A stretch of 64,000 nucleotides of DNA from Sulfuracidifex tepidarius. Its GTDB lineage: Archaea > Thermoproteota > Thermoprotei_A > Sulfolobales > Sulfolobaceae. Shown here piece by piece: positions 14,210 through 64,000 of the stretch. The notes under the pieces were generated by a model that worked only from the letters and a program-made list of their open reading frames with translations, did no database searches and was not told the origin of the DNA. The position numbers were made by a program, and so were the translations under genes. Positions within the stretch are counted from its first letter, which is position 1. Each line of letters starts with the position of its first letter. The stretch covers positions 62,001 through 126,000 of the forward strand of contig NZ_AP018929.1 of NCBI RefSeq assembly GCF_008326425.1, read 5' to 3'.

Positions 14210-14216
14210 ATAGAAC

Positions 14217-43284: not shown

Positions 43285-44502
43285 ATGTTGTATGAAATTG
43301 CTGTTAGAGCAAGGAACATGATATGGCGTTACCCTTTAGGTGGAGCGGAGAACGTTACGCTTAACTGGTTGTCTAGATTCAGGCGTATTAAGGTACACAT
43401 GATTCCCGTGGTAGATGATATTTACGTGAGGATGTGCTTCAATGGTAAGGTAAGTAGAGAGGAGGTCGAAGAGATAGCGAAGGGTCAGCCTTTCTCTTAC
43501 GACCAAGACATCCTGAGCATGTACTTGGATTGCAAGTTACACCTAGATCCTGGCGGGTATAGAAAACTGGACTACAATTACGTATTTGACCCAGTCCTTT
43601 TTCCGGATACATTACCTTTGAGGAAGCAATTCAGTAAAGAAACCGGTAATCCCTTAGTCTCCTACGCGCTTAAGAAAGGATCAATTCTGATCTCATCGCT
43701 TATAGGTATAGGTGACATTAACCTGACTAACACTTACCTTTTGAAGAACGCATTCTACATGTCCCTCTACGGCGGTCTAAGCGATAACTTACTCCTGAAA
43801 TTCCTTTACTTAAGAACGATAGAAAGGCACCTTTTTCTAAACCTCAGGAAATACAAGGACAGAGTGCTGCTTCTGTCAACCTCCGAAGGCGTTAAGGACA
43901 AGCTACCTAAGGGTATGGAAGCCAAGGTAGTTTTCCCCCATTTCGCCCTTGATGAGGACGTGAGGAAATACAAGACTAGCGACAAGTGCGACTACGCTGT
44001 CTTTTTCGCCAGGGTTACCACACTCAAGGGAATATATGAGGCAATAAGAGCGTTCAAGCTCATTAAGGGAGAGAATATAAAATCGCTCCTAGTTATAGGT
44101 GAGAACTTTTCATCCGCACGTTCAGAGGAAGACGTTCAGTTCCTCGGAAGGATAAAGGACCGACAGGAAGTCTATAAAATCATTTCCCATGCTAGGGTAA
44201 GCATATACCCCTCCCATTCTGATGCCTTTGGGATTTCCGTGCTAGAGACCTTGGGTGTTGGAACTCCTGTGTCGATGTACTATAATCCTGCAAATTATGA
44301 ATATTTTTCGAAGTCAAAAATGGTGAAGATTGCAAGAGAATATGACGTCAAGGGGCTGGCTAGGAACGCATTGGAGCTGAATTACAATGACGATGAGTAC
44401 ACGGATTCATTGATAAGCTCTCATCTTAACTGGGAAACAGTAGCACAGAAAATAGAGGGCATAATCACGAAGTGGTTAGAAGGTAAGAGTCAAACCTGGT
44501 GA
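43285..44502 (+). CDS. GT4-family glycosyltransferase
   Basis: This 405-residue GT-B protein has a donor half with CDYAVFFARVTTLKGIYEAIRAFKLIKGENIKSLLVIG and RVSIYPSHSDAFGISVLETLGVGTPVSMYYNP, where DAFGISVLE holds the E-x7-E signature. The N-terminal acceptor half (WRYPLGGAENVTLNWLSRF) starts with a GG-A-E motif typical of GT4. It lies directly after the DUF2079 gene and before the pilin gene, so it may act on the same glycan or on the pilin. Confidence 0.85.
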   Translation: MLYEIAVRARNMIWRYPLGGAENVTLNWLSRFRRIKVHMIPVVDDIYVRMCFNGKVSREEVEEIAKGQPFSYDQDILSMYLDCKLHLDPGGYRKLDYNYVFDPVLFPDTLPLRKQFSKETGNPLVSYALKKGSILISSLIGIGDINLTNTYLLKNAFYMSLYGGLSDNLLLKFLYLRTIERHLFLNLRKYKDRVLLLSTSEGVKDKLPKGMEAKVVFPHFALDEDVRKYKTSDKCDYAVFFARVTTLKGIYEAIRAFKLIKGENIKSLLVIGENFSSARSEEDVQFLGRIKDRQEVYKIISHARVSIYPSHSDAFGISVLETLGVGTPVSMYYNPANYEYFSKSKMVKIAREYDVKGLARNALELNYNDDEYTDSLISSHLNWETVAQKIEGIITKWLEGKSQTW

Positions 44503-45082
44503 CATTAGTTTACACCTTAACCAAGGTAATGCTGCAAGAAAGAGTGGGAGAAAGGGCCTACGCCCGAAGCGTAGGTATAAGGACTGGCTTCTAATTGTTC
44601 AAATAATTCAAAGGTCTTAATGAATTAAGAGCGACTAGCCATTAAAGTCAGATTCTACTCTCCCAATAAGGGGAGCCGAGCAAACTCTTATATGCTCCAT
44701 GGACAGTGAAAAGGATTTTTCTCTTCCTTCATGAATAATATCTAGAACAACCATAGTGCCTATACTGAGCTACTATATTCGAATACTAAATTATCTCAAT
44801 TTATTATAAAGTTAAGGTTGTAATACTCTATAAGCTCATCACGATGAAATTTTTCTGTAGTTAATCCAAATAAATCCTAGATGGTGGAAATCGTGTAAAC
44901 CAGGAGAAACCATCATACAGCAGGGAGTAATTCTTTGCATGATTATCTAAATTACATACTTCTATTGAGTTTAAGCCTTTCTCTTTTCCTTAACTCTTGT
45001 TACGAGTGTAATTTCAGTTATTTTTAATTCTACGAAAGATATATAGACAAAGCTTTATATAGACAATAAATGAAAGATATGT
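44503..45082. other. 580-bp intergenic region with a GC hairpin, pilin promoter at the end
   Basis: CCTACGC-CCGAA-GCGTAGG at 44557-44575 is a perfect 7-bp stem. Near 45050 a TATA-like CTTTATATA stands about 33 bp before the pilin start. No coding frame is supported. Confidence 0.45.
44557..44575. terminator. GC-rich hairpin after the GT4 gene
   Basis: The stem CCTACGC/GCGTAGG with loop CCGAA is 55 bp downstream of the gene end. It could mark transcript processing or be an IS right-end relic, since the loop resembles that of the TnpB right ends. Confidence 0.35.
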
Positions 45083-45484
45083 GTGGTTCAGAGAAAGAAT
45101 AGAAGGGGTATATCAGGTTCCCTAACTTCTTTTATCCTTATTGCTGCATCAGTTGTGATCTCACTTGTGGTCATAGGTTTCGCCTTTGGGACTCTTACAT
45201 ACACCTCCACGCCAACAGTGAAACAGGACGGGGAAATGTTGATATTGAGCAAAGGTGAAGAGTACTGTCTAACTGGAGTCGTTACCTCCTCTGGGAACGT
45301 GATAATAGATTCTGTAAGTGTTAATGGAAATATGGAGTCGATAAGCGTGAAGATAAATCAGGGGCAGAACAACCTTGATATTCCTTTACCTTCAAGTTTC
45401 AACCCACAACAAGGGCAGCACTATAACGTGATCCTGGGTTTGAGTGATGGGACTAATCTAAATGCTTACGCTTACTATAGTTAG
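45083..45484 (+). CDS. Type IV (Aap-like) pilin
   Basis: This 133-residue protein begins QRKNRRGISGSLTSFILIAASVVISLVVIGFAFGTL. That is a basic class III signal, cleavage expected after the Gly (RRG|ISG) by the archaeal prepilin peptidase PibD, then the hydrophobic assembly helix. The C-terminal beta domain ends NVILGLSDGTNLNAYAYYS, which is shared with the pilin at 49565 (VTLGLSDGQSVAISATYQ) and the ruined copy at 52875. It would assemble into adhesive pili on the cell surface. A TATA-like box stands about 33 bp before the GTG start. No pilus ATPase or platform gene is in the window. Confidence 0.85.
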   Translation: MVQRKNRRGISGSLTSFILIAASVVISLVVIGFAFGTLTYTSTPTVKQDGEMLILSKGEEYCLTGVVTSSGNVIIDSVSVNGNMESISVKINQGQNNLDIPLPSSFNPQQGQHYNVILGLSDGTNLNAYAYYS

Positions 45485-45674
45485 GATCTTACCACTTTAT
45501 GGTTTACTTTTTCCGTTATCCACCCTAGTGGTCCGTTAGGATCTTTCACCTTATGATAATCTCAATAAATTAGAAAAATGCGTCTAGCACTTTCCCACTG
45601 TTTTCCAGTCTTAGGATTCCTTCTAAATACTACTATGAAATAACTTGATAATCTCTATAAGTTTTAAGGAAATA

Positions 45675-47990: not shown

Positions 47991-48681
47991 GTTTTATCCT
48001 CCTAATTACAATAATTAGAGGTATTGCAATTAAATTGAAAGGTATTATGCAATCGCGTATTAAGAACAAGAAGTTCTGGTTTTCTTTGATATTTTCTAGG
48101 GCAGAAAAGGGTTTAAGTCCTGGAGGTATTACTGGTTCTTCATCAAGGAAACTTGTTGGAATAAGGTTGTAAGTAGCGTTTCTAATTAGATCTCTTTCAT
48201 CATTAGTTTGGGTTATTATAATTTTGGATGGAACACCGGAAGAATTTACAAAATATGTGCACTGAATAATTGCTCCACAAAAGCGTTCGGTTCCATAGTA
48301 TGTAAACACTCCGTTGTCTTCACCATTTAGACTTAAATTTAAAACCCTTTGGAGATTCCCCTTACCTAGCAGGTAAGTAGGTATATAATAGAATGACTTT
48401 GGGTATGACAAATTATCTAGTTCTGACGACGTAGGGAATTCTATGGAGTTATTCATGCATATTATGTTAACGGAGAAAACGAAAGTACCGTTGTTATTGA
48501 TCTTTGTAACGTTTTCTATTAGTAATTTACAAATTATTTTGCTCTCTCCAGCTTCCGGAGAGATCAACGATCTTATCTTGTATTCTACGAATGATCCCTG
48601 GCTTAAATGCGGTATTAACGACGGATTTGTTAAGACGGAAATTACCATCAAAGTGACTGTAAGGATGATGGTAATTCGCAT
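47983..48681 (-). CDS. Exported protein with C-terminal membrane anchor (232 aa)
   Basis: A signal-type N-terminus (ITIILTVTLMVISVLT), a glycosylatable outside domain and a last helix (NLIAIPLIIVIRRIKHA) give a bitopic surface protein. It has the same length and layout as the next gene upstream (48765-49463), both with an early GSF-V-YK motif (LSQGSFVEYK versus LEKGSFTVYK), so they are ancient paralogs. It is in one strand-run with a pilin and the GT-C-like protein. Family unknown. Confidence 0.65.
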   Translation of the reverse strand: MRITIILTVTLMVISVLTNPSLIPHLSQGSFVEYKIRSLISPEAGESKIICKLLIENVTKINNNGTFVFSVNIICMNNSIEFPTSSELDNLSYPKSFYYIPTYLLGKGNLQRVLNLSLNGEDNGVFTYYGTERFCGAIIQCTYFVNSSGVPSKIIITQTNDERDLIRNATYNLIPTSFLDEEPVIPPGLKPFSALENIKENQNFLFLIRDCIIPFNLIAIPLIIVIRRIKHA

Positions 48682-48764
48682 AAAATATATAGAAAAACTT
48701 GTCTAAAAATCTTTACCTACTATCTTACTAGAAAATAAAAATTATGTTTCTCTTATACTCATTA

Positions 48765-49463
48765 TTAATTTCCTTTTCTAAATATAAAAATAATAATTAT
48801 AGCAATAATGGCTGTGCCTATGATGTATTCATCTATGCGCTCTTGAGTTGTAACTATTGTATTGACGAAGTTTACGTCTGTAGGTGTCTTAAGTTGATAT
48901 GAATAAGATGGTATAGAGGCCGACGAATTACCTATATTTGTGGATACTAACGTGACACAAGTCGACGAGACTAAAGCTCCTGAACTGGTTTGATTGAAGA
49001 CGATCTTGTATGCAACTCCATTAGGCATGAAATAATAAATACCTAATACATTAACATCTTGGATGGAGTTAGAAGATGCATAAATATAATATCCGTCTTT
49101 TATATCTTCGAATGTAAGCCCGCTTATATTTTGCCCTAGAAGTGTAGGAGATATATAACGCATACCTATGCAGTAAGAAGAATTCCCAATTGTAAAGATT
49201 CTTAATCCAATATGTTGAATTGAAGAACAATCTATATCAGTTGAATTTAAAAGGATAGACCCGTTTTGAAAAACTTGTTCAACCACGTTTATGTAAATAT
49301 TTGTCAAGTTATATTTATAAGGGTAGTAAATATGATCAGTTGATTTATACACTGTAAAACTACCTTTTTCAAGGTAGGCATTTGGTGTTATGGCTTGCAG
49401 ATTTAGGTGAACTAACATTGCTAGTAAAAAAAATAAAAAGATACCATATAATTTTCTGTTCAT
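48765..49463 (-). CDS. Exported protein with C-terminal membrane anchor (232 aa), paralog of the neighbour
   Basis: The N-terminal helix (LYGIFLFFLLAMLVHLNLQAI) exports it. The outside domain has many Tyr/Asn and sequons (YYPYKYNLTNIYINVVEQVFQNGSILLNST). A last helix (YIIGTAIIAIIIIFIFRKGN) anchors it. It resembles the 47983 protein in length and order. The gap to the pilin gene upstream is about 100 bp. The role is probably in the envelope with the pilin. Confidence 0.65.
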   Translation of the reverse strand: MNRKLYGIFLFFLLAMLVHLNLQAITPNAYLEKGSFTVYKSTDHIYYPYKYNLTNIYINVVEQVFQNGSILLNSTDIDCSSIQHIGLRIFTIGNSSYCIGMRYISPTLLGQNISGLTFEDIKDGYYIYASSNSIQDVNVLGIYYFMPNGVAYKIVFNQTSSGALVSSTCVTLVSTNIGNSSASIPSYSYQLKTPTDVNFVNTIVTTQERIDEYIIGTAIIAIIIIFIFRKGN

Positions 49464-49564
49464 TATTATAATAACTGATTTGCCAGTATTTAAGTCTTGA
49501 CTTCAAAACAAAGAAAGATAAAAAAAAGAAGACCTATAAAATATTTTTTTAGATAAAAATATTT

Positions 49565-49999
49565 TTATTGATAGGTTGCTGAGATTGCCACGCTCTGCCC
49601 ATCAGAAAGGCCTAAGGTTACGGTGTAGGTTCCTCCTGGGTTGAGAGAGGCTGAGGTAGGTAGGGTAATGGTCAGTGATGTAGTACCTGGGCTTATTGGT
49701 ATGTTGGCAGACTCTAAAGCTCCATTTACTCCCACAGAGTCTATGACTGTATTCCCTGTGGAAGTCAATACTACACTGAGAGTTGTACCACCGTTGGTTA
49801 TGTATGCAGCTCCGCTCTGTTGTACTGTAGGTGCACCGCCGAAGCTCAGGAAGCCGAAGGCGAAAGCAACGACTATTAGAGCTATCAGAACTGAAGCTAT
49901 GACTAATATCAGGGCTGTTACAGCGCCTGACAGACCTTTCCTGTTTTTCCTACTCTTTATGAGGAGACTTTTCATGTTCTCTGAATCTTTTCTATACAT
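49565..49999 (-). CDS. Type IV (Aap-like) pilin
   Basis: This 144-residue reading has SRKNRKGLSGAVTALILVIASVLIALIVVAFAFGFLSF, a class III signal with cleavage expected after KG|LSG. A Met nearer the signal (49975, MKSLLIKSRKNRKG) is an alternative start. The beta domain (GAAYITNGGTTLSVVLTSTGNTVIDSVGVNGALES) matches the 45083 pilin in order (STGNTVIDSVGVNG versus SSGNVIIDSVSVNG). It is divergent from the DUF2079 gene at 50170 and upstream of two exported proteins and a GT-C-like protein on its own strand. Confidence 0.85.
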   Translation of the reverse strand: MYRKDSENMKSLLIKSRKNRKGLSGAVTALILVIASVLIALIVVAFAFGFLSFGGAPTVQQSGAAYITNGGTTLSVVLTSTGNTVIDSVGVNGALESANIPISPGTTSLTITLPTSASLNPGGTYTVTLGLSDGQSVAISATYQ

Positions 50000-50169
50000 T
50001 TCTTCTATTTAAGCTTTTCTTATTAGTTAAATCCGATACCTATCCATTTAAAGTAATTTATTATTTTATCATCATTAAATGTATTTAATATTTGTATTGG
50101 GACTGTCTTGATAGAAACACTTTTTATATCAGCAATAGTTAAGACGAAATTCTCAGAGGGTTATAGAGA

Positions 50170-51732
50170 ATGACGAAAGTGAAAATAGAAAAGACAGGAA
50201 AAACAGTGCTCTCTATAGTAAAATATGTTCTTCCATTAACGTTTTACATCACATGGGTTCTCTATTTCCTATACCTTCTGCCTAGTTCCGTCATTTTCCC
50301 TTCTGCTCTAGTTACCTTGATTTCCACGTTGTACTTATTCCGCAATCCACTTTACACTTGGCTCAAGAAGTGGCCTACCCTGACTTCTGTAGTATTCCTT
50401 TTCACTTTCTTCGTAACGTTGTGGATGTACCTGAAATATCTATCCTTCGAAGTGTACGCCTTTGACCTTGGAACGTTCCAGCAGTCCCTTTATACTACCG
50501 TGTTCTCTCACAGGTGGTTCTTGGACAACCCAGACATGGCAACTTTTTACGGCACTCACCCTGAAGGTTACGTTTCCATCTGGAACATCCTTTTCTCTCC
50601 CTTCATGTTGTTATTACTCCCTGAATATGCCTTGTTCCCTTCTCCAGTAACTCTCTTCTTCATTCAAGCTTTAGCCATTTCTTCTTCATCTATCTTACTC
50701 AGGGAAGTATCTACAGGATGGCTAGGGGAGTCCAAGGCAAGGGTTCTCTCTTACCTCTGGTTCGCCTACCCTTTCACCTACTTTTCAGGCTTTTACGACT
50801 TCCACTTAGAGTCTTTCATACCATTCTTCACCTTCCTTACCTTACTCTCTATACAGAGAGGGGGAAGGTTGTTCAGAGCGAGTTCCCTCGTTGTATACCT
50901 GACAATAATTAAGGCTACTCCTTTCCTCATGATAGCCTTGTTACCTTGGTTGTACAGGAAGAAGCTCATAGGCAAAAATGTTGTAGCATATATGTTTACG
51001 TCTATCTTCTTCGCCTTTTTCGACGTGATAATGGAAAGAATACCTTACGACGGTAAGCTGACACATTTTTACGTGTTAGGAGTTAAAGTTCCCTTGCTGA
51101 GTGAGAGTTACGTTTTCCATTACATACCAATATTGTTGTATCACCTTGCCCCGCAACTGGGAGTTACCATCCTTTCCTGGTTCGTGGGGGTTCTCTTCCT
51201 CCCCTTGTTTTCCCTGTCAATCCTCCCTGCCTTGGTATGGATGGGTGGAGGGCTCATCACGTGAGACCTGCTTTACGTGAACGGATTTTATCAGTATGGT
51301 AACATAATTTTACCATTCATCTTCTTGGGAATCATGGACTTCGCCAGTAGACACGACTTCGATCTGAGGTATCTGATACCTACTTCTCTAATCACCGGGC
51401 TCGTGGTACTTACTTTATCCTTCCACTATGGATTAGGTTTCATAACTACTGCATACTCCCTCCAAGTACCTCACTTGAACCAGGAAGATGAGGGGCTCTC
51501 TAACTTCCTCTCAAAGATACCCAGCAACGCATCTCTCTTAGTAAGCTCGCGGGTCTTTCCACACGTGGCTGACGATCCTAACGCTTACATCGTTACGCCT
51601 CCTTGGGTAGTACCTGAATACGTGGTATTGAACACGACACCTTCCTCTCATACCTTTGAGCAATTAAGGGAGGAAGGTTACGTCGTAGTGTATAACGCTT
51701 CGAATTGCCTCGTTATGTATCATGAGAAGTGA
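50170..51732 (+). pseudogene. DUF2079 membrane protein, interrupted by one in-frame TGA
   Basis: Reading starts at ATG 50170 and gives nine or ten helices with the DUF2079 motif (AFDLGTFQQSLYTTVFSHRWF, FYGTHPEGYVSIWNILFSPFMLLLLPEYALFPSPV). At 51262-51264 a TGA interrupts. The same frame continues DLLYVNGFYQYGNIILPFIFLGIMDF and ends at 51732. The intact paralog at 53559 has the matching part (YVPYYNDLYQYNFIVIPFLFIAF), so the TGA is a lesion rather than a normal end. It is otherwise full length, about 520 residues, and shorter at the C-terminus than the paralog. Confidence 0.8.
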
Positions 51733-52414
51733 AAGGATTGGAGCACTCCTCTACTCGACTCCCTGTTTCGTCACGCTATAGATGGGACGAGGTCAAAAAC
51801 TCCTTGAGAGTAGTTTCAACAGGGGAAATCAACTTCTTTTTATGATTTCTTTGATGAATTTTCTAATGAAGGAGAGGGATCTATTGATAGTCGGAGGTGA
51901 CAGTTAGAGGAGGTGACTTACAAAGACGAGGCCCTAGCTTTTTATGATAATAGGTCCTGACACAGAAGTTATATCTATACGTCTCAGCAGGGCGTAACGT
52001 AGATGAGATCCAGAGTTCATAACGTAGCTTGAAAACGCGGGTCTGTGTATTACGAATTATGAAAAGCAACAATATCTACAGAGTTATTGAGGCGTTGTAG
52101 AAGAATAGTTAAGCGCTTCCACAATTCTCCTTATGTAGGGAAAAAATGCAGAGATTGAGTGCTTAATCTGTGTTTAGATAAAGGTTGAGATACACACTTT
52201 TTTAACTTTACGTGGGTTAAGGGGGCGAAAGTCCCCGCTATCAGAGCATCAACATTTGATCTGTCAGCAATGGCTAGACAGTTCGTGTGTGTGATGAGTT
52301 GAGCCAATGTTAAGAGCTAATAAAACTATGATGTGAATAGTCGTCTCTACTCTTTGCTGTCTAATGGGAAAAGTATAAACTCACTCTCTCATATTTTTAC
52401 ATAAAGTGAACTAC
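51733..52414. other. Decayed intergenic DNA with a TnpB left-end-like block
   Basis: 52205-52250 carries GGGTTAAGGGGGCGAAAG, which resembles the inner left-end block at 5930-5946 (GGGTTTAAGGGGGCGTAAG). Other short frames here have many stops. No gene is supported. Confidence 0.35.
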
Positions 52415-52816
52415 ATGGATGACGTAAAGGAGATCATAAATGGTGAGTGACCCTGAACTAATGGATGTCCTGACACAGAAGGTAGGAGAGAGACTAAAGG
52501 AAGACAAACTCGTGACGGACGTTGAAGGTTTGAAGAAAGACGTCTCCGAACTCAAGGACATGGTCGCACGCAATGTCAGGGAAACCAATGACCTTAAGGT
52601 TCGGGTAGAGACACACAACAAGATACCGAGGAGCACTCAAAAAGCATAGAGGAGAACACTAAGGCAATAAAGGAGATGCAAGCTCAAGTATGGGAAGCAA
52701 TCAAGAGGATCGACGAGAACTCTAAGAGGATAATAGAGCTAAATGAAAGAATGGATGAGCGTTCCCACGTCATTGAGGAGCACACGAAGGTTATCGCAGA
52801 ACAATCTCGTAAATAA
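52415..52816 (+). pseudogene. Frameshifted coiled-coil protein
   Basis: Pieces in three frames give MDDVKEII, PELMDVLTQKVGERLKED then GLKKDVSELKDMVARNV and, after a frame change near 52625, TEEHSKSIEENTKAIKEMQA followed by VWEAIKRIDENSKRIIELNE and IEEHTKVIAEQSRK. Heptad patterns run through the length. Similar coiled coils precede nuclease domains in DUF3782-type proteins, but no such domain follows. Probably the ruined front half of one. Confidence 0.55.
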
Positions 52817-52874
52817 ACATTTCATATGAATTAATGTTATGATAAACCTAGTCATGAGCCAGTTATAATACTTC

Positions 52875-53268
52875 TTAACTATAGTAAGTGTAAGCGTTTA
52901 AGCTAACTCCGTCGCTAAAGCCTAGGATTACGTTATAGTGTTGCCCTTGTTGAGGAATGAAACCAGGAGCAGACAGACGTTTAAGTTGTTCTCTACCTGG
53001 ATCTCCAGGCTCAGTGTTTCCATTTTTCCATTCATGCTCACAGAGTCAACGTTCACTTTCCTGAAGATGAAACTACTCCAATGAGGAAATATGTTCCGCC
53101 TTTTTCACTATTCTCATTGATCCATCCTGTTTAACTGTAGGTGTGGAGGTGTAAGTAATCGTGGAGAAAGTGAAACCTATTACCACAAATGAGATCACGA
53201 CAGAAGCTGTGATAAGTACAAAAGGTTAAAGGGGCTGATATAGCTTTCTTGGTCTTTCCTTGTTTCAT
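52875..53268 (-). pseudogene. Ruined type IV pilin, paralog of the 45083 pilin
   Basis: The minus strand reads MKQGKTKKAISAPLT, frame change, FVLITASVVISFVVIGFTFSTITYTSTPTVKQDGSM, further changes, and ends NVILGFSDGVSLNAYTYYS. The intact pilin at 45083 has ILIAASVVISLVVIGFAFGTLTYTSTPTVKQDGEM and NVILGLSDGTNLNAYAYYS, so the two are recent duplicates. It lies 290 bp downstream of the DUF2079 gene at 53559 on the same strand. Confidence 0.8.
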
Positions 53269-53558
53269 ACTAATGCCTCTTCATTTATCCATAGAAGTCT
53301 TCTTGGATTATTATCTTTAATAAAATAATTTTTGGCATTACCTGGTGTACAGCTTTAGTTAATTTAGAACTGGAAAAGTAATCGGTTGGAGGTAGTATTT
53401 TCAATGGATATCAAAAACTACTATTAGTAATAATATTATATTTTACTTCATCACCCTTCTCTATTCCGATTTTAAACTACTCATTTTTTATAGAATTATG
53501 ATAACACTAAAATAATATTATAATTTACAATAAAGAATCAAACTACTTATAAATAAAA
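53269..53558. other. AT-rich intergenic region
   Basis: No gene. TATA-like AATAAAATAATTTTT stretches may serve the pilin remnant. Confidence 0.35.
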
Positions 53559-55316
53559 TTAGATAAATTCCTCATTTATTGTCACATAAGTAAACGAATA
53601 AGAGCTAATATTCAAGCACGAACTATTCACCTCAATCAGTGCTTGGGTCGCATTGATGAGCTCGGTTCCTTCTACGTAACCAGTGAAGGGTCTAGAGAAA
53701 CTGATATTGTATACGCCCGGTTCTACTGTAAAGCTTTGGTTATTGTTCGGATAGACGAAGAAGGAAGCATTAAAAGGTAGGAAGGCTAGTACACTCTGCT
53801 CAGTCCTAGATAGAGCTACATAAGGTGGAATTTCAGCAATTACATGATACCCGTTTTTAATATAATGATTTATCTGATTCGAATGAAAATAAATGCAGTC
53901 AAATACGTAATTAGGAGTGACATTGGGAGGTGCTTCACAGAAAGTGTACATACTGTTCGCTAAATGTGGAAAGATGGAGTTAGAGGCTACGATAACCCCA
54001 GACATATGTGAAACCACTTCATTTATACTGGCGATCTTTTGGTCTATGTGAGGTATTTCAAGTGACGCTATGCCCCTATCATACCCGTATACAGATGTTA
54101 GTGCTGCAATCGAACTAATAACGAGAAATGATATCACCAAAGATAACTTAAACGAGTTAATATTAATGTTTATATTAGAAACTGAAAAAGCAATGAAAAG
54201 GAACGGTATAACGATGAAGTTATACTGGTATAAATCGTTGTAATAAGGAACGTAAAGCGAGAACCATGAATATGCTAGCCATACCCATGCTGGTAGCATT
54301 TGTAAAGGTTTACTCAGAGGTAACAGAAGTAATGGAGCTAGGAGAAACAAAAGATACATAGACTCTAAAGGAATGTTATACAAAACATGGAATAAGTTAT
54401 AACGTAAGCCAAAATAATGGAAAGAGGTCGTAGTAAGAGCATTCTTAACCAAGTACAGCTTACCGTCGTAAGGTACTTTCTCCATGAGTGTAGAGAAACC
54501 AAGGTAGAGCAAAGCACCCGCCCCGGAAATCAGAGCTACAATTTTCTCTCTGGTTTCTCTATATAAGAAGGGGATAGAGAAGAGGAAGAGGACTGGTGTG
54601 ACCTTGATGATGGTGAAGTACGTGACGAGCAAGGGCCACATATACCTCCACCTCATGGTCAGGTAGAAGTAAAGCGTGATGAAAGTGAAGAAAGGTATGA
54701 AAGACTCGAGGTGAAAGTCGTAGAACGACGAGAGGTAGAGGAAAGGGTATCCCAAGTAAACGTATGGCACGACCCTAGAGGCGCGTGGGTTCAGGACCTC
54801 CACCAGTTTCTTCAGTGGGACTGACGCTGTAGTGACCACTAATGCCTCGACTGTGAAGAGGGTCAGAGGCGATGGGAAGAGAGCGTAAAGCGGTAGGAGG
54901 AGCAACATGAAAGGGGAGAACAGAATGTTCCACAGAGACACATATCCCTGAGGATGAGACCCGTAAAAAGTAACCATATCTGGGTTGTCCAGGAACCATC
55001 TGTGCGAGAATGCTGTTGTGTATAACGACTGTTCAAATATGCCCAAGTCGAAAGCGTAAGTCTCGTATGAGAGATACTTCAAGTACATCCAAAGGATCAT
55101 GAAGGACGAAATCGTCAAGGATACAGCGAGGAGCTTCCATTCATACTTCACTACACGGATTATCTTTCTCACGAGCAGAAACGCTGCAGATGACACGGTG
55201 ACGATCGAAGCAGGGGCTAGGGCAAAGTACGAATCAGGTATGACACGCAGGAAGGCCAGTGCCCAAACCACGTAGAAAGTGGAAGGTATGACATATTTAG
55301 CTTTTTCAATCTTCAT
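53559..55316 (-). CDS. DUF2079 membrane protein
   Basis: This 585-residue intact paralog of the 50170 gene shares with it YETYAFDLGIFEQSLYTTAFSHRWF and FYGSHPQGYVSLWNILFSPFMLLLLPLYALFPSPLTLF. Ten or more helices are followed by an outside domain (VVASNSIFPHLANSMYTFCEAPPNVTPNYVFDC) and a beta-rich end with sequons (FNASFFVYPNNNQSFTVEPGVYNISFSRPF). The family is thought to be GT-C-like, working with lipid-linked sugar outside the membrane. Its downstream neighbour is a pilin remnant, the same association as at the other pilins in this window. Confidence 0.8.
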   Translation of the reverse strand: MKIEKAKYVIPSTFYVVWALAFLRVIPDSYFALAPASIVTVSSAAFLLVRKIIRVVKYEWKLLAVSLTISSFMILWMYLKYLSYETYAFDLGIFEQSLYTTAFSHRWFLDNPDMVTFYGSHPQGYVSLWNILFSPFMLLLLPLYALFPSPLTLFTVEALVVTTASVPLKKLVEVLNPRASRVVPYVYLGYPFLYLSSFYDFHLESFIPFFTFITLYFYLTMRWRYMWPLLVTYFTIIKVTPVLFLFSIPFLYRETREKIVALISGAGALLYLGFSTLMEKVPYDGKLYLVKNALTTTSFHYFGLRYNLFHVLYNIPLESMYLLFLLAPLLLLPLSKPLQMLPAWVWLAYSWFSLYVPYYNDLYQYNFIVIPFLFIAFSVSNINININSFKLSLVISFLVISSIAALTSVYGYDRGIASLEIPHIDQKIASINEVVSHMSGVIVASNSIFPHLANSMYTFCEAPPNVTPNYVFDCIYFHSNQINHYIKNGYHVIAEIPPYVALSRTEQSVLAFLPFNASFFVYPNNNQSFTVEPGVYNISFSRPFTGYVEGTELINATQALIEVNSSCLNISSYSFTYVTINEEFI

Positions 55317-55835: not shown

Positions 55836-55871
55836 ACTTCTGGGGGAGAAGTATACTTCTGGAGGAGAAGT
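55836..55871 (+). promoter_or_regulatory. Two tandem 17-bp palindromes at the ATPase start
   Basis: ACTTCTGGGGGAGAAGT (55836-55852) and ACTTCTGGAGGAGAAGT (55855-55871) are inverted repeats with arms ACTTCT/AGAAGT, one base different between copies. A TATA-like CTTATAAC just precedes the first. The second holds GGAGG, which also serves as the ribosome-binding site, and runs into the TTG start at 55871. This is consistent with both transcriptional and translational control. Confidence 0.6.
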
Positions 55872-56887
55872 TGATTTTAGATGAGAGGCCTAAGAGCAGG
55901 AAGGAGGACTTGTTCGACAGAGACGAGGAACTTGGTCTGCTGTTGAAAGCGATCAGGGATGGGAAGCCTTTGATCCTCCTGACGGGGATAAGGAGGATAG
56001 GGAAGACCTCCGTGTTTCAGGTCGCATTGAACGAGTGGGGAGGGTCCTCAGTGGTGTTGGACTGCAGGAAGCTCAAGGAGAACTACGGCAGGAAAGACCT
56101 TTACTCTCTCCTTTCAGGAGCGCTATCGAGGACAGAGAAAATCAGGGATCTGTTGTCAAAAGTCCAAGGGGTAAGCGTGGTGGGGAACTACGTTGAGTTG
56201 AAGTGGGGAGGAGAAAGATACGTTAGCCTAGCTGACCTCTTCGACCACCTCAATGAAAGGAAAGTGATCGTAGCTATAGACGAGGCCCAGAAGCTCAGAG
56301 GTCCCCTATCCTCGGAAGTGAAGGACGCCATAGCTCACGCCTACGACTACGATAGGAACGTCACTTTTCTCCTCACCGGATCTGAGGTAGGGCTCCTCAG
56401 GGAATTCCTGGGGGTAGACGACGAGGGGTCGCCTCTCTTCGGGAGGCATTACGTAGAGGTCGAGCTTTCCAGGTTCACAAGGGAGAAGAGCGAGGAGATG
56501 TTGAGGAAGGGTTTCGCTGAGGTAGGCGCTGAGGAGGGAGGAGTGGGGGAGCTGGTTGACGCCTTCGACGGTATCCCTGGGTGGCTCGTATTCGCCGGGT
56601 TAAGGTACGTCCAAGGTAAGCCCATAGAGGAGGTAAAGGACTTGGCTTCCAAGTTAGCACTGAACGAGATGAGGGGACTCTCGAGGAGGGAGAGAGAGGT
56701 CTTGAAGTGTATCGGGAAAGGAAGGAAGGGCTGGAAGGCAATGAAGGAGTGCGTGGAAGAGATGGAGAGGTCCACTGTGTCCACAAGTGTCCTAGACAGA
56801 GCGTTGAGGAACTTGGAGAAGATGAGCCTCGTGAGGGACTACTCGTTCCTTGACCCGGTGTATGAGGAGGCATCGAAAAGGCTGTAA
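55871..56887 (+). CDS. Archaeal ATPase (PF01637-like)
   Basis: This 338-residue protein starts at TTG 55871, with GGAGG five bases before. Walker A is TGIRRIGKTSV (about 38-48) and Walker B is KVIVAIDEAQKL (131-142), followed by a sensor-like TFLLTGSEVGLL. A C-terminal winged helix (SRREREVLKCIGKGRKGWKAM) completes the STAND-like archaeal ATPase layout. The biological role of this family is unknown. Its GC-rich codon use differs from the AT-rich flanks. The overlapping palindromes suggest self-regulation. Confidence 0.85.
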   Translation: MILDERPKSRKEDLFDRDEELGLLLKAIRDGKPLILLTGIRRIGKTSVFQVALNEWGGSSVVLDCRKLKENYGRKDLYSLLSGALSRTEKIRDLLSKVQGVSVVGNYVELKWGGERYVSLADLFDHLNERKVIVAIDEAQKLRGPLSSEVKDAIAHAYDYDRNVTFLLTGSEVGLLREFLGVDDEGSPLFGRHYVEVELSRFTREKSEEMLRKGFAEVGAEEGGVGELVDAFDGIPGWLVFAGLRYVQGKPIEEVKDLASKLALNEMRGLSRREREVLKCIGKGRKGWKAMKECVEEMERSTVSTSVLDRALRNLEKMSLVRDYSFLDPVYEEASKRL

Positions 56888-57190
56888 AACGCAGGGCAAT
56901 AGAGAGGAGATTCGTACTAACGTGAAGATAGACTTGCAGAGTTGAAACTATTCACGGAATAGATAAAAAACCATCAACCACGTGATCCAGCAAGGTTAAC
57001 AAGTAACTCCTAGGTATTTAAAGCACGGGTTACGCGTCTGCTCACCATCAAGTCGTACAACATTTATCGAAAAAAAGTCAGATCGCTTCTAGTGTAAAAA
57101 GAGAAGTCTATCTTGAGGTCGTGAGTTCAAGGGTGCATCGAAAGTGCAAACGTCGGCTCATGGCCTTGTGAAGGTGAACTCTCATATTCT
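56888..57190. other. Intergenic region between the two ATPases
   Basis: No gene. GAGGTCGTGAGTTCAA near 57115-57130 resembles a tRNA variable/T-loop start, but the T-stem does not close, so I do not call a tRNA. Confidence 0.35.
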
Positions 57191-57221
57191 TATATTCGTG
57201 AATATATATTCCCCAATATAT
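57191..57221 (+). promoter_or_regulatory. Two overlapping palindromes at the DUF234-type ATPase start
   Basis: TATATTC-GT-GAATATA (57191-57206) and ATATATT-CCCC-AATATAT (57204-57221) are perfect 7-bp-arm inverted repeats. The second ends in the ATG at 57220. A TATA-like box overlaps the first. As at 55836 and 28670, two palindromes lie between promoter and gene, but with a different sequence. Confidence 0.6.
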
Positions 57222-58404
57222 GTTTGACATAGAAAGGAGAGAATGTGAAGAGATAAAGAACGTAATGGGTTGGAAGCTGATTTACGGAAGGAGGAAGGTC
57301 GGGAAAACATATCTAGCTAGGAAGTGTCTTGACTACGATGATTACTACTTAATTTCTAGAAATTTGAGCATAATTCGTGGAGACGAAGAACTTTCCTTAG
57401 ACGAGGGGATAAGGAGAGTTGTGGGTGAGTTGAAAGGAGGCAAAAAAGTGATATTCGATGAATTTCAAAGGTTGCCCGAAAAATACCTCGATCAGATAGC
57501 AACGGCTTATCCTAATGGTACTTTAACACTCTTGGCGAGCTCACTGGGAGCTGTGAGCAAGGTCGTTGAAAGGAACAGCCCCCTTCTTGGATACGTCGTA
57601 CCTTACAGAATGGGGGTAGTGAAGTTCAGCGACGCCGTGTTAAGCGTTAAAGATCCCTTTAAGGCTTTACTTTTCAGGGATCCTTGGACTGTTCAACACG
57701 CAACGGGCTGGAGTGACATAGAGAGAAACCCTCAATCATTCTACTATATTACAAAAGGTCTGATTGGGGAAATCTTTCAGGAAGAGGACAGAAAGCTGAC
57801 TAAAACGTATGAAGCGATACTTTTAGAGGTAGCTGAAGGTATGTGGAACACCTCAATGATTTCGGCTCGGTTACAGTCCAAGATGGACATGAATACCTCG
57901 AAAGCCTCTTCCTACATTAACACCTTGTTTAACCTTGGGCTCATAAAGAAGATCAAGGTATACAAGGGAGGAAAGGGAAGCGAGTGGTACTACGACCTCG
58001 ATTCACCCATCATGGAAACTACCTTTTACGCCGAAGCCAAGTATAGGGTATCCGAAGGAACCAAGGTGGTATTAGATCTGACTTATCCTATTTCAAAGGA
58101 AATGCAATTCTCTATAGGGGAAATGCTGGCTGAGTATTACAACGCAGAGCTAGCTTACACCCCACAAGGCGATATAGACGTGGTTTTGCTGAAGAAGGGG
58201 AAACCATTCATCGCTTATGAAGTCAAGAACAGGTTCAGCGATAAGGAAGCGAGGAAAGCGATAGAGAGGATAAAGGATTTCGGAATTCCAAGAGCGGGTC
58301 TGGTTGGAGTGTTAGAAGATCCGCCCAGTTCAGAGGACTCAATAGGGCGGGATAGGTTGGTGGAGATTGCAAGAGAAATAAAGGAAGCCAGAAATAGAAA
58401 CTAA
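57220..58404 (+). CDS. Archaeal ATPase with C-terminal nuclease-like (DUF234-type) domain
   Basis: This 394-residue protein has Walker A IYGRRKVGKTYLA (21-33), Walker B KKVIFDEFQRL (75-85), TLTLLASSLGAV, then a winged-helix region (MDMNTSKASSYINTLFNLGLIKKIKVY). The C-terminal GDIDVVLLKKGKPFIAYEVKNRFSDKEA is a PD-(D/E)XK-like pattern (D..., E-x-K). This is the DUF234-type arrangement of archaeal ATPases. A DNA-related role is likely; its target is unknown. The start lies within the second palindrome of its own promoter region. Confidence 0.85.
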   Translation: MFDIERRECEEIKNVMGWKLIYGRRKVGKTYLARKCLDYDDYYLISRNLSIIRGDEELSLDEGIRRVVGELKGGKKVIFDEFQRLPEKYLDQIATAYPNGTLTLLASSLGAVSKVVERNSPLLGYVVPYRMGVVKFSDAVLSVKDPFKALLFRDPWTVQHATGWSDIERNPQSFYYITKGLIGEIFQEEDRKLTKTYEAILLEVAEGMWNTSMISARLQSKMDMNTSKASSYINTLFNLGLIKKIKVYKGGKGSEWYYDLDSPIMETTFYAEAKYRVSEGTKVVLDLTYPISKEMQFSIGEMLAEYYNAELAYTPQGDIDVVLLKKGKPFIAYEVKNRFSDKEARKAIERIKDFGIPRAGLVGVLEDPPSSEDSIGRDRLVEIAREIKEARNRN

Positions 58405-59146
58405 CCTGCGCATGCAAGTTAAGGAGAAATTACACTCTTTCTTTTTTTACATACATAGCTTTATCTTAAACGATGCTAATAGAGCTGAAGGTCTTGTGAG
58501 GTGATGAATAGTACTAGTGAATTACGAGTTTTCCGATATATCTATCGAAACCGGGACGTACAGAGCCCCGAAGCTAGTGACTACGTAGGTGTCTGTCCCT
58601 CAAAAGTCAGATGTTTGCTAGTCGCTAGATGGAGTTGGAAAGACTTAAAGACGTCTGAACTCCTTTGCAAGATAATGAAGTAGGAAGCTTGAGCTAATTT
58701 CACCACTTTCTCCGTGTCGAATTCGGTCAGGATTATCTTCACCTTAAGAGAGCTTAACATATCCTCTACCTTGCTGAAAGGGGAGTAATACGGTAGCGAA
58801 TTTCTAAGCTTTGTTCAACCCTCTCACCCTCTCAGTGAAAACCCTTACACCCTCAAGACTGGGGATATGGTAGTACTTAGTCACTTATACCTAGCTTCAC
58901 GATCTCTTCACTAGCGTGCTTCTTGGGTAATGCCTTATACAAAAAATTCCTATATTTTGAATTGAGACATATAAAAAGGAGAAAAGAGACCCAAAGTACT
59001 AAAAGGTTTCCTGATCTGGTCTGGGACAAATTCCCTTACTGAAATGGACTTTTTGACACGTTAACCTTCCATTATTGCATTCCCTTATAAACAAAGTTTA
59101 AATAGAACGAAAACTAGTCAAAAAATAGATAACATGGTGATTTCGA
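58405..59146. other. Decayed DNA with possible HTH remnant; operon promoter at right end
   Basis: 58501-58683 encodes a short HTH-like stretch (RVFRYIYRNRDVQSPEASDYVGVCPSKVRCLLVA). 58690-58960 on the minus strand has broken phrases (SLEGVRVFTERVRGLN, SKVEDMLSSLKVKIILTEFDTEKVVKLAQ) of an unidentified lost gene. GTTTAAATA near 59096-59104 is a TATA-like element and GGTGAT before 59147 a ribosome-binding site. Confidence 0.4.
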
Positions 59147-59701
59147 ATGGATGATGTAGTAGAGGACATGATAGTCCTCATCGCGGTAGTTATAATTGGC
59201 CTGGTGATTGCTTCCTTTGCCTTCAGTTACTTCGTGCCCAAGATCAGCTTCTCTAATGCTGAGTCGCTCTCGAACAGCATGGCGTCCTCAATGAGCGTGT
59301 CGAACGGCCCTCTCCTGGTGAGCGGAGGAGAGGGAAGCGCACTCTTCGAGGCATATGACCCGTCTTACAACTATAACTATACCGTGATCGCGTTTGTAGA
59401 ACCTTCCTCTTATGCTTCCTCAGTTGGGTTAGTAACCCCTTCTACCCCAACTACCTCGTCTTCCTTCCAAGTGATTATGCCTAACGGGAAGGTGGCGTCA
59501 ACGGTGAACGTGGGGACAGTTTACTCACTTTCGGGAACAATACTTGTCACTTCAGGGGTAGGGTACACAGTGCCTGCTAACACTCCCTTCACAGTGAAAA
59601 TACCTGCGAACTCAGGGGACATATTGGTAGTCTGGTTCCTCTACCAGGAGGACGGGTACACTTTCAGGGTAGACTACGCTTACAGCGGGGTGCCCTCATG
59701 A
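59147..59701 (+). CDS. Pilin-like secreted protein, first of a coupled operon
   Basis: This 184-residue protein has an N-terminal helix (VVEDMIVLIAVVIIGLVIASFAFSYFVPK) that looks like a type IV pilin assembly helix with little or no basic leader. The rest is a beta-rich domain ending ILVVWFLYQEDGYTFRVDYAYSG. The last gene of the window (63231) ends a domain with the same pattern (LILWVFTEYDGKFYRLAITYL), so the two share a fold. GGTGAT five bases before the ATG supports the start. The stop overlaps the next start. Confidence 0.65.
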   Translation: MDDVVEDMIVLIAVVIIGLVIASFAFSYFVPKISFSNAESLSNSMASSMSVSNGPLLVSGGEGSALFEAYDPSYNYNYTVIAFVEPSSYASSVGLVTPSTPTTSSSFQVIMPNGKVASTVNVGTVYSLSGTILVTSGVGYTVPANTPFTVKIPANSGDILVVWFLYQEDGYTFRVDYAYSGVPS

Positions 59702-61260
59702 TCGTGAACGTGAGTAAGGTAAAGAGAGGAGTAGCTGTAGCAGTGTTCATGCTGATCATGATCATAGTCCTTGTAGCTGTCCTAGTTCCAGCTTACTTCG
59801 TATTCGAGAGCACTCCCTCCTACTACCAGCAGGTGCATTACTCAGGGGAGTCGCAGCTCCAGGGTTACCAGAAACAAGAGGTGTTCAAAGGAGAGCCTTC
59901 AATTTACTATAACTCTAGCGAATCCCCTTACTTGGAGTTCAACTACTCCTCTGTTCCCATAGTTTTCAACATAAGCGAGGTATATTACTTCTCGCCTACC
60001 TCATCGCAATGGGTTGTAGCTGTTAACAACACGATGGTTGAGGGGAGTGGTGACTTGCCTTTACCCACGTCAGCTTTCAACAATCCAATTTTAATTGTGA
60101 CAAGCGTCGGTAACATTTTCTTCCTCAACCCCAACTCCTCTATAGCTTCAGTATCGACTGTAGCCCTAGCAGGTAAATCTCCTGTGTATATCCTAGCAGT
60201 TGGGTTGAACGGTACCAACGTGATACCCCTCACAGCTGGGATAGTGTTTAACGGTCAGACCGCAAAGACCCCTGAGGTGTTTTACGTGGACCCCGGGACT
60301 TACACGCTCTCTGCAGAACAGAGCCAAGTCTTCATTGACGGGCTCACGGGTAATTTCTATCAGTGGACTTCTGTAGGCTCAGGAGGCGTCAGGTCTCCCA
60401 CGTCTATGTCCACTGGGGTGTCAGTGTCAGGTCCCCTTATAATAACGCTAGAGTACAAGATGGTGTTCACCAAGTATGAAGTGACGTTTAGCGAAAGCGG
60501 GATACCTCTCAACGGGAAGATACAGGAAGGAACAGTGAGTATATGTCCCGTGAACTCCACTATCACTCTCGTGGTCGACAATAAGACGTACCAGCTCGGT
60601 CCTAACGGGCTTACCCTTGACCTCACATACGGTTATCACGAGGTACAGTTCCAAGACCCAGTTTACGAGTACTTCAACTACGATGCCCCTTCCATAGGGA
60701 AAGTCCCTTACGGGGAGATACAGGAGTACAAGATAAGCGGGAATGTTACTAACAGTAACGTCTCAGTTTCGGGCGAATACATTTTCGTTTCCGGGAACGG
60801 AGAGTTCTCCGAAAAATACGAATCGAGTGAGGTGTTATACGCTTTGATCACTGAGAATCACTTTTATCTGCCTCAAGGTTCTCTTTTAGAACAGAACAGT
60901 ACTCCAATACTTGGGGACATTGCTGGTCAACTCATAGAGACAGAAATAGATGGTCAAACTGTAGTGTTAGGTCCTACTAAAAACTTCGAAAATGAGACAT
61001 TGTACTATCCTTCAGGTACTAATATACAGGTAAATTATGACTATCTAGATTCAATTAGTGGAAAATTTGAGATAGATTTATCATATTATAAGGATTTACT
61101 TTCAAATCCTACTCTTATCGAGGTTTACTGCGCCGGAAACATGGTTAGCCATAAAGTAAACATCGCTAATTATCCAGATGTATCTTTTTCCTTTACCCTG
61201 TATTCCCCTACCCTCTTGGTAAATCAGGAGGAATGGAACGAAGGAGGTGTTACGTTATGA
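59698..61260 (+). CDS. Large pilin-like exported protein (520 aa)
   Basis: It overlaps the previous stop by 4 bp. The N-terminus KVKRGVAVAVFMLIMIIVLVAVLVPAYFVFES is a basic leader plus pilin-type helix with possible cleavage at RG|V. A long outside domain follows with many sequons, including KGEPSIYYNSSESPYLEFNY and LIVTSVGNIFFLNPNSSI. The next protein has matching blocks (DGKPAILYSNASLVFQF, AIVTTLGNVFYLTPESSI), so they are tandem paralogs. At 520 residues it is several times the usual pilin size; it might be a tip adhesin or a thread subunit. Confidence 0.65.
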   Translation: MIVNVSKVKRGVAVAVFMLIMIIVLVAVLVPAYFVFESTPSYYQQVHYSGESQLQGYQKQEVFKGEPSIYYNSSESPYLEFNYSSVPIVFNISEVYYFSPTSSQWVVAVNNTMVEGSGDLPLPTSAFNNPILIVTSVGNIFFLNPNSSIASVSTVALAGKSPVYILAVGLNGTNVIPLTAGIVFNGQTAKTPEVFYVDPGTYTLSAEQSQVFIDGLTGNFYQWTSVGSGGVRSPTSMSTGVSVSGPLIITLEYKMVFTKYEVTFSESGIPLNGKIQEGTVSICPVNSTITLVVDNKTYQLGPNGLTLDLTYGYHEVQFQDPVYEYFNYDAPSIGKVPYGEIQEYKISGNVTNSNVSVSGEYIFVSGNGEFSEKYESSEVLYALITENHFYLPQGSLLEQNSTPILGDIAGQLIETEIDGQTVVLGPTKNFENETLYYPSGTNIQVNYDYLDSISGKFEIDLSYYKDLLSNPTLIEVYCAGNMVSHKVNIANYPDVSFSFTLYSPTLLVNQEEWNEGGVTL

Positions 61261-62795
61261 CTCGACTTCCCCGTAGTAGAGGTATAAGTACTTCAATCTC
61301 CGTGTTGATACTCCTTGTGGTAGTCCTTTCAGTAGGTATTCCTTTCCTCTTCTACTTGGAGTACTCTTCTCAGTACTCACAAGTATCGTCGGCTATCTCT
61401 AACAACTACGTTACTCTGAAGGGAGACCAATACAAGAACGTGTTGGACGGTAAACCGGCAATACTTTACTCTAATGCATCCCTAGTTTTCCAGTTTGTGA
61501 ACGGTACTTTCTCTTCACAGACGTCTTTCACCATCAAGAAGGTACTTCAATTCACCTCTTCGGGTTTCTGGCAGGAGATACCATCTGCCTGTGTGTCTTT
61601 TGAGAACGGTACCAAGGAGTACATAAATCTGGAGGGGCTAACTGTTAACACCGGGACTCAAATACAGTTTAAAGACTTAAGTGGTCCAGTAGCTATCGTA
61701 ACGACTCTAGGTAACGTGTTCTACCTCACGCCTGAGTCCTCAATAGGTCCTTACGTGAGCGTGGGTAAGGGTGGGTTCACCATCATATCGCAAGCGGTTT
61801 CAAAACAGGGGTTAGTGGGGATACAGACTACCGTCGTGTCCAACATTAAGGGTGCCTATGCAGACTACAAGACGCCCGTGACCTTTGCGAACCTGACAGG
61901 GTCCTTTGTGGTAAACGAGCCTGAGCAGTACGTGTATTTCACCAACGCATCAGGAATCTACACTGCAGAGTTTCATAACTGGTACGTGATAGGTAACGCC
62001 TTGGTGACTGCTCTGAACTCCACTGCTGTGAGGGTTACTTTGGAGGGTTCATCAGCAGTCCTTGTGAGCAACTACACTGTACTGACTTCAAAGGTGACAG
62101 TGGACATAGTTAACAAATACTACTCCGAGACCGGTTCAGTATACATCGATGTGGACGGTCATGAATACGAAGTGGGGTCCTCGCTCCCTGTTCAGGTTAG
62201 GGCTGGGTACGTGAATATCACCGCGATAACTACCTCAACTTGTTTGAAACAGGACAACGGCGAAGAGAAGAGTTACTTTAACTTCTCTAACTTTACTTAT
62301 AACGGAGTTACGTACAAGGGAACTGAGGCGTTAATACTCATCCCGCCCACATCATCATCTTCCACTGTTTACCTGAATTATTACAATGGAGTAAACTGCT
62401 TCCAAGTTACTATAGTGCAGAAAGTATATAACAACGGCTATCCTAATAACGTGAGTGGAATTGAACCGCAACCTAGCGAATACCCAGAAGAAGCTTATTT
62501 CAATGGGACTGGATATTCCTTAAATTCAATACCTAATACCTTCTGGCTAAAGCAGGGTAATTACAGCATTGGAGGTACAGGAAGTCCAGAAGGTGGCAAC
62601 TCTTTGGACTGTTATATCGTCTATTATAATGATGATACTTATCAGTACTTCTCTGAAATTAATTGGATGTGCTATTACGTTCAAACGAGTTCTGGTGAGA
62701 AAGTAGCCAATGGCTACTATTATGTGGACTCCCCAGTTACTCTCTATTTCTATTACTACTTTGGTGTGGGTTATAACCCTATAATAGGTGTTTAA
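61257..62795 (+). CDS. Large pilin-like exported protein (512 aa), paralog of the previous gene
   Basis: ATG 61257 overlaps the upstream TGA. The leader TRLPRSRGISTSISVLILLVVVLSVGIPFLFYLE has the class III form (RSRG|IST). Blocks DGKPAILYSNAS and IVTTLGNVFYLTPESSI match the preceding protein. The C-terminal quarter is rich in Tyr, Asn and Gly and has four cysteines (CLKQ, NCFQ, DCYI, MCYY) that could form outside disulfides. The position and size suggest a surface adhesin-type subunit. Confidence 0.65.
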   Translation: MTRLPRSRGISTSISVLILLVVVLSVGIPFLFYLEYSSQYSQVSSAISNNYVTLKGDQYKNVLDGKPAILYSNASLVFQFVNGTFSSQTSFTIKKVLQFTSSGFWQEIPSACVSFENGTKEYINLEGLTVNTGTQIQFKDLSGPVAIVTTLGNVFYLTPESSIGPYVSVGKGGFTIISQAVSKQGLVGIQTTVVSNIKGAYADYKTPVTFANLTGSFVVNEPEQYVYFTNASGIYTAEFHNWYVIGNALVTALNSTAVRVTLEGSSAVLVSNYTVLTSKVTVDIVNKYYSETGSVYIDVDGHEYEVGSSLPVQVRAGYVNITAITTSTCLKQDNGEEKSYFNFSNFTYNGVTYKGTEALILIPPTSSSSTVYLNYYNGVNCFQVTIVQKVYNNGYPNNVSGIEPQPSEYPEEAYFNGTGYSLNSIPNTFWLKQGNYSIGGTGSPEGGNSLDCYIVYYNDDTYQYFSEINWMCYYVQTSSGEKVANGYYYVDSPVTLYFYYYFGVGYNPIIGV

Positions 62796-62796
62796 C

Positions 62797-63234
62797 ATGT
62801 TTCCATCTCCCCGTTTTACTAAGGCTCAGGCTAACCTTATCGCATTCCTCATCGCAATAGTCGTGATCTTGATCTTCGTGTTCGGGATCTTCTTCGCCAT
62901 CTCAAACGTGTCCTCTCCTGCTCAACACAACTTGGACTACCACTCCGTGATCCAGCAACAAGTGAACGGAGGGGCAGTCCTCATCTACTACAACGCAACG
63001 TCAAATCCTTTTCTTTACGTGGTGAACTCCACCTCGGGTTACAAGCTCGAGGCGGTTTACGCGAACGAGGGTGGTGTGTGGGTTCAGGTATATAACACGC
63101 CTACACCCCTTTCACCAAAGGAGAAGATCTACCTCCCCGCCCAAGTGGCAGGGGACGAAGTGTCCCTTCTCCTGTTCGCTTATAACACCACCCAGTTCGC
63201 GTTCGCTACACCTAATTCAACGGTGGTATCATGA
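62797..63234 (+). CDS. Short pilin-like exported protein (145 aa)
   Basis: The start is ATG 62797, one base after the previous stop codon; a GTG at 62788 is in frame but less likely. The N-terminus PRFTKAQANLIAFLIAIVVILIFVFGIFFAISNV is a pilin-type helix after a basic leader. The outside part (VNGGAVLIYYNATSNPFLYVVNSTSGYKLEAVY) resembles the N-terminal blocks of the two large proteins. The stop overlaps the next ATG by 4 bp. Probably a minor subunit of the same surface structure. Confidence 0.65.
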   Translation: MFPSPRFTKAQANLIAFLIAIVVILIFVFGIFFAISNVSSPAQHNLDYHSVIQQQVNGGAVLIYYNATSNPFLYVVNSTSGYKLEAVYANEGGVWVQVYNTPTPLSPKEKIYLPAQVAGDEVSLLLFAYNTTQFAFATPNSTVVS

Positions 63235-64000
63235 ACGGCCCTACTCGTATAATTTTAATAGTAGCAACAGTCTTGATCTCCCTGGTTTTCTTTTCCCTAT
63301 ACTCGTTTTACGGGGCCATGTTCACGGGTCAAGCTAACGTAGAGAACACCTTGGTCTCTGAGGGAAAGAGCATATCGGTCTCTTTCTCTCCTACTTCCAT
63401 AGTGAATAGCTCTTCATATACGGAACAAGTTAATGGACAGTACCTGAAGTTCGAGATAGACGTGCTTTCCTCTATAGATGGTCCGTTGCCTTGGTACATC
63501 GTAGTCCCGTTCGTACAGAACGGTACTTATAACCTAGATACCACATTCCAGAACGGCGGACAGAACGCTACCATACAAGGTATCTCCCCTATCACGCTCA
63601 CAAAGGAGTACATCCCTCAGACTAACAGCTTCTACTCGTTCACCCTGAAGGGATATAACGTGAGTAACCTGCAGGTGTTCAATATCACAGCTAACATGAC
63701 CAGGGGAGAGTCCCTTATCCTGTGGGTCTTCACAGAGTATGACGGTAAATTCTACAGGCTAGCAATAACTTACCTTACACCAAATGACGAGTCTATAGTT
63801 CCACCAAAGGGTACCGTGGGTCTTGAACTTTGCACTAACATATACGTGATACATCAGGATACCAAGAGTCCCGTGACTTTGCAGTACGACGGAAACACCA
63901 TCTATTTGTCCAATAATTCCATCATCATAACTCCCATCCAAGTTTTACCAAAGGTAGCATCAGGAGACATTACCTTAAGCCTACCTCAAGGAACAGTGAT
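63231..64000 (+). CDS. Pilin-like exported protein (3' end outside window)
   Basis: At least 256 residues, cut by the window edge. The N-terminal PTRIILIVATVLISLVFFSLYSFYGAMF is a short leader and membrane helix. The outside domain (SSYTEQVNGQYLKFEIDVL, VFNITANMTRGESLILWVFTEYDGKFYRLAITYL) matches the first protein's end. It is coupled to the previous gene by a 4-bp overlap. The operon may continue beyond the window. Confidence 0.65.
   Translation, partial: MNGPTRIILIVATVLISLVFFSLYSFYGAMFTGQANVENTLVSEGKSISVSFSPTSIVNSSSYTEQVNGQYLKFEIDVLSSIDGPLPWYIVVPFVQNGTYNLDTTFQNGGQNATIQGISPITLTKEYIPQTNSFYSFTLKGYNVSNLQVFNITANMTRGESLILWVFTEYDGKFYRLAITYLTPNDESIVPPKGTVGLELCTNIYVIHQDTKSPVTLQYDGNTIYLSNNSIIITPIQVLPKVASGDITLSLPQGTV

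Follow-up and report, generated by a model that had tools for sequence, protein, structure and literature searches.

The stretch of Sulfuracidifex tepidarius DNA analysed here (the window; 64,000 nucleotides, C1:62001–126000 of the single 2.56-Mb contig of genome G000) ends in an operon of five pilin-like genes, A-B-B′-b-A′. On sequence grounds, this is a real, family-wide pilin module that had been uncharacterised until now, and we give an about even chance to its products being an accessory set (minor pilins, tip adhesin or S-layer anchor) of the Sulfolobaceae Aap pilus, assembled in trans. Next to nothing is known of minor pilins or an adhesive tip in archaeal type IV pili, and the role of AapA is unclear (PMC11178815, PMC11178785); two leaderless, stator-like proteins together with three long class III pilins would make a concrete candidate for such minor pilins or an adhesive tip.

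All five genes lie on the plus strand. The first, A (59147..59701), encodes a leaderless pilin-like protein of 184 aa with an N-terminal helix (residues 2–48) and an ArlG-like beta head. It is followed by B (59698..61260), a class III (RGVA) pilin-like protein of 520 aa with Ig-like stalk domains, and by its paralogue B′ (61257..62795), which bears the class III signal RGIS and measures 512 aa, or 520 aa from an upstream ATG. The gene b (62797..63234) has a pilin-like product of only 145 aa with the class III signal KAQA, a homologue of the N-terminal domains of the two preceding proteins, and A′ encodes a leaderless A paralogue of 793 aa with a long lectin-like C-terminal region. A′ starts at 63231, and the window end at 64000 falls within this fifth gene, which runs on to 65612. 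A overlaps B, B overlaps B′ and b overlaps A′ by 4 bp (ATGA) in each case, and a 1-bp gap separates B′ from b. The initial annotation had proposed a translationally coupled operon of at least five genes, including two for proteins of about 520 residues, and both points were confirmed; moreover, a sixth gene (g6; 65617–67122) follows 4 bp after A′ and encodes a 501-aa protein bearing a Sec-type signal and, at its C-terminus, a transmembrane helix. By sequence inspection, a TATA-like box, TTTAAATA (59097..59104, plus strand), lies ~45 nt upstream of A as the putative promoter of the A-B-B′-b-A′ operon. Immediately upstream of the operon, two archaeal ATPase_2/AAA_14 genes occupy positions 55871–58404 of the window. 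On its downstream side, the minus strand of L002 carries a nucleotidyltransferase gene and a small ORF resembling a HEPN/MNT toxin-antitoxin pair (13610–14289), as well as a gene for a thermopsin-family protease (16293–17360; E = 7e-50).

Profile comparison sorted the proteins into two families. A aligned with A′ (hhalign 99%, E = 5e-19), B with B′ (100%, E = 5e-41) and b with either B or B′ (97%, E ~1e-11); A against B gave nothing in hhalign. One family therefore consists of A and the first 180 residues of A′, and the other of B, B′ and b, the last corresponding to the N-terminal domain of the two larger proteins. The likeness previously noted between the first and last proteins, and among the second, third and fourth, is thus far beyond chance. 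None of the six proteins (A, B, B′, b, A′ and g6) matched a significant family in Pfam, NCBIfam or PHROGs, and PDB sequence profiles returned nothing for B, B′, b and A′ and only weak matches to Saccharolobus pilins for A (E = 0.001). Identity of the set to its orthologues was 36–46%, compared with 56–69% for AapE outside the genus.

To define prepilin signals, we looked for [KR][GA] ahead of the hydrophobic helix in full-length proteins across the Sulfolobaceae, using the other ORFs of the same loci as background. The motif was present in 72 of 75 proteins of the B family (B, 23/25; B′, 25/25; b, 24/25; for example KGLS, RGIS or KAQS), compared with 11 of 332 background ORFs. It occurred in none of 28 A proteins and in three of 33 A′ proteins, two of which were B-type fusions. 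The set thus divides into three proteins with the predicted class III signal of the type IV pilin superfamily (B, B′ and b) and two that are leaderless (A and A′). The initial description of a pilin-like N-terminal helix, in most cases preceded by a basic leader, accordingly holds for B, B′ and b, but there is no such leader on A and nearly none on A′. A gene for the prepilin peptidase PibD is present in G000 at 1.70 Mb.

For A, AlphaFold2 returned a model with a pLDDT of 88.8 from six sequences, in which helix 2–48 leads into a beta head, the predicted architecture of the type IV pilin superfamily. Its top Foldseek match was an archaeal type IV pilus, and VIA-align matched archaellins and an archaeal T4 pilus over the full length. 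This predicted fold and the class III signals of the B family support the earlier view of the set as pilin-like. The A head also resembled that of the archaellum stator ArlG (5tuh; VIA-align Z 6.3, rmsd 2.6, 89 residues), although a Z of ~6 is modest, within the common range and similar to scores given by unrelated beta-sandwich proteins. In N-terminal helix profiles A came closest to ArlG, B to AapB, and B′ matched UpsB (59%). Between the A and ArlG heads hhalign found no sequence similarity (~0–1%), and A was rejected as a sequence-level ArlG homologue beyond the first 22 columns of the alignment.

The ArlG-like helix and head of A, and the fact that ArlG and ArlF, too, are a pair of leaderless pilin-like proteins, raise the question of whether the set is a second archaellum stator, made of ArlG/ArlF paralogues with stalks. 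A deletion covering the set does raise archaellation in S. acidocaldarius (PMC11607397). However, the heads are dissimilar in sequence, A and A′ are coupled to long class III pilins, and the set occurs in genomes without an archaellum: ArlI was found in only 15 of 31 genomes, so that about half of the carriers lack it. G000 has no ArlI orthologue and hence no archaellum, and the archaellum reading was rejected for this genome; for the set at large, we regard it as highly improbable.

The model of B was weaker, with a mean pLDDT of only 57. Helix 9–37 and a beta domain were predicted; the N-terminal helix, the first beta domain (68–143) and the second (159–257) were fairly confident, while the C-terminal half was too weak for claims about its fold. 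In this low-confidence model the second domain resembles Ig-type domains found in pilins and adhesins of Gram-positive bacteria (Z 8–9), as does, with less certainty, the C-terminal part; the likeness refers to the Ig-type arrangement only. The extra C-terminal half of long A′ proteins is lectin-like, with a Laminin_G_3 match in two of six long members (best E = 2.6e-6). In G000 the same C-terminus follows an A′-type start, but in G016 and G025 it follows a class III start of the B/b type, so stalk types have exchanged heads. In loci L058 and L059, two short class III proteins come after a divergent A′ (803/758 aa).

The lectin-like and Ig-like domains favour the adhesin part of the original proposal of a surface filament or adhesin complex; the separate filament, by contrast, found no support (see below). 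Large ectodomains of this kind would also befit membrane-anchored surface proteins that act as lectins or bind substrates and are processed by PibD yet never assembled into a pilus. Sulfolobus has class III sugar-binding proteins, and class III signals occurred on other surface proteins as well, among them large ORFs of the loci studied here. Against this stand the conserved co-operonic A and A′ with their missing leaders, pilin fold and ArlG-like helix, the fixed two-plus-three composition and the lack of conserved transporter genes nearby, and we consider such free-standing binding proteins rather unlikely. A tentative reading, short of an even chance, is a lineage-specific portal or tip complex of a retractable archaeal pilus, in which uncleaved, ArlG/ArlF-like A and A′ anchored in the S-layer, Ig-stalk prepilins B and B′ and exchangeable lectin heads would form a modular adhesive tip or base not yet described.

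A full or variant set was present in all 31 Sulfolobaceae genomes searched; a scan of named genomes returned six loci. In its usual form, found in 22 genomes, A′ is divergent from A-B-B′-b. A is inverted in G023 (S. acidocaldarius) and its sister species G024, and five other genomes hold variants in which a leaderless A-like gene adjoins a class III gene. Only in the window's genus (G000 and draft G026) do all five genes point in one direction, so the nested A-B-B′-b-A′ order described initially does exist here but is peculiar to this genus among the 31 genomes. Elsewhere, 183 other genomes of the order yielded two marginal matches only, and the set is confined to the Sulfolobaceae. The locus is conserved throughout the family and has the gene order of no named appendage, in line with the initial annotation; it is without a name in the literature we searched, and a search with S. 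acidocaldarius locus tags retrieved only the paper on the deletion described below. B and/or B′ are decayed or interrupted by stop codons (L063, L057, L074) in G008 (M. javensis), which is among the 22 genomes of usual form and in which both B and B′ are decayed, and in both copies of G002, a pattern that reads as repeated loss of large predicted surface pilins.

In the 20 kb around the set, no genome had an ATPase, a platform gene or any other conserved neighbour. The absence of a pilus ATPase or platform gene, first noticed within the window, therefore extends past position 64000 and to all carriers, and the locus lacks the secretion ATPase and TadC-type platform of a self-contained type IV pilus. 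No T2SSE or TadC match lay near the set in G000, the nearest being at 370 kb, 1.7 Mb and 2.5 Mb. Of the three T2SSE ATPases encoded in this genome, one is an AapE orthologue accompanied by AapF but by no adjoining pilins (L092), one belongs to Ups (L093) and one to a locus with its own pilins (L091). Besides its ATPase, L091 (9280–17347), the third type IV pilus locus of G000, has genes for a platform, for three pilins and for a surface protein of 1190 aa that carries a membrane helix at its N-terminus. Of the 31 genomes, 30 encode an AapE orthologue, and the one that does not is an 87% complete draft; L091-type ATPases were limited to about ten, and UpsE, present in most carriers, was intact in neither G002 nor G003. 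In G002, the set occurs with Aap as the sole intact engine. The Aap type is hence the only candidate engine common to all carriers, a co-occurrence that is suggestive only and discriminates weakly because the Aap engine is nearly universal. Candidate partners lie in the window itself, 9–14 kb upstream of the operon: an Aap-type major pilin of 144 aa (49565..49999, minus strand), 40% identical to S. acidocaldarius AapB, and a second Aap-type pilin of 133 aa (45083..45484, plus strand). G000 thus combines AapE/AapF with AapB-type pilins. The two pilin genes are surrounded by genes for glycosyltransferase-like and large multi-spanning membrane proteins (39445–55316), possibly a surface-glycosylation island.

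Service to the Ups or bindosome machine instead of Aap would agree with UpsE in most carriers and with the UpsB-like helix of B′. UpsC is likewise a prepilin-domain protein encoded outside its core operon (PMC11868833). Yet the ups locus of G000 is separate, no Ups genes lie near the set, the set is kept in G002 although UpsE is not intact there, and only ten or so genomes have the L091-type engine; this alternative appears quite improbable.

If the set does serve the Aap pilus, B, B′ and b would be made as prepilins, cut by PibD at [KR][GA] and held in the membrane by their pilin helix, with stacked Ig-like domains turning B and B′ into long stalks. A and A′, whose pilin helix has no leader, as in ArlG and ArlF, would stay uncleaved as a base or cap, and in the window's genus A′ would bear the lectin-like head. 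AapE as the ATPase and AapF as the platform, encoded elsewhere, would then incorporate the five, acting together, into a pilus whose major pilin is of the AapB type, or attach them to it, and there the set might confer adhesion from the tip or the base. With the Aap system of S. acidocaldarius (aapX, aapE, aapF, aapA, aapB) the set shares class III pilin signals, and G000 has the orthologous engine and AapB-type pilins; its genes, however, lie outside the aap locus and are not among the named Aap components, and B, B′ and A′ are 3–5 times larger than AapA and AapB. It also counts against the Aap reading that AapB is the sole pilin in the Aap filament structures available (PMC11178815). Bacterial type IV pili have co-operonic minor pilins and a tip adhesin (FimU/PilV/PilW/PilX/PilY1), including large adhesin-like ones, with the engine encoded elsewhere. 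The archaeal set is similar by analogy only, in its co-operonic minor pilin-like proteins, its large adhesin-like members and its remote engine, and differs in that two members are leaderless.

Five proteins with their own undescribed thin filament or fibril, for which Aap, Ups or another engine is merely a shared motor, would fit a two-plus-three set whose members stay together throughout the family while their genomic surroundings vary, and sizes unlike those of known Aap, Ups or archaellum subunits. But no member resembles an abundant small major pilin, no genome has an engine beside the genes, and the four filament types described for S. acidocaldarius are all assigned to other genes (PMC11607397). 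Thread (Saci_0406) is likewise a Sulfolobales surface fibre with beta-rich, Ig-like subunits; it maps to another locus and is PibD-independent and not T4P-like (PMC11607397). The class III signal that B, B′ and b share speaks against a Thread-type filament. Given also the Aap engine in carriers, the Aap-type pilins in the window and a hyperarchaellation phenotype common to two S. acidocaldarius mutants, the separate filament suggested initially is unlikely, and less likely than Aap accessory parts supplied in trans.

The two mutants are MW2106 (Δsaci_1676–saci_1686), which is hyperarchaellated and yields archaella and some threads as sheared filaments (PMC11607397), and the Aap-less engine mutant ΔaapF, whose cells are also described as hyperarchaellated (PMC11178785). 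The published MW2106 primers match G023 exactly and place the deletion at ~1433739 to 1446702 of the 2,225,959-bp genome. By our count, 11 genes fall within it, and the final five are A, A′, B, B′ and b (individual gene numbers are inferred). As four genes outside the module and a second A/B-like pair are also deleted, and MW2106 is not stated to be free of Aap, the phenotype is a lead and not proof. A published strain already without the set makes the Aap reading directly testable on Aap assembly, twitching, adhesion and cross-talk with archaella. Further points against this reading are that the A and ArlG heads are unlike in sequence and that the S. acidocaldarius B gene (L056 9155–10839) is frameshifted by a 1-nt deletion relative to G024, so that the laboratory strain probably has no functional B. 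The second pair within the deletion adjoins the set (L056 4539–6871) and consists of overlapping genes for a leaderless and a class III protein of 176 and 601 aa.
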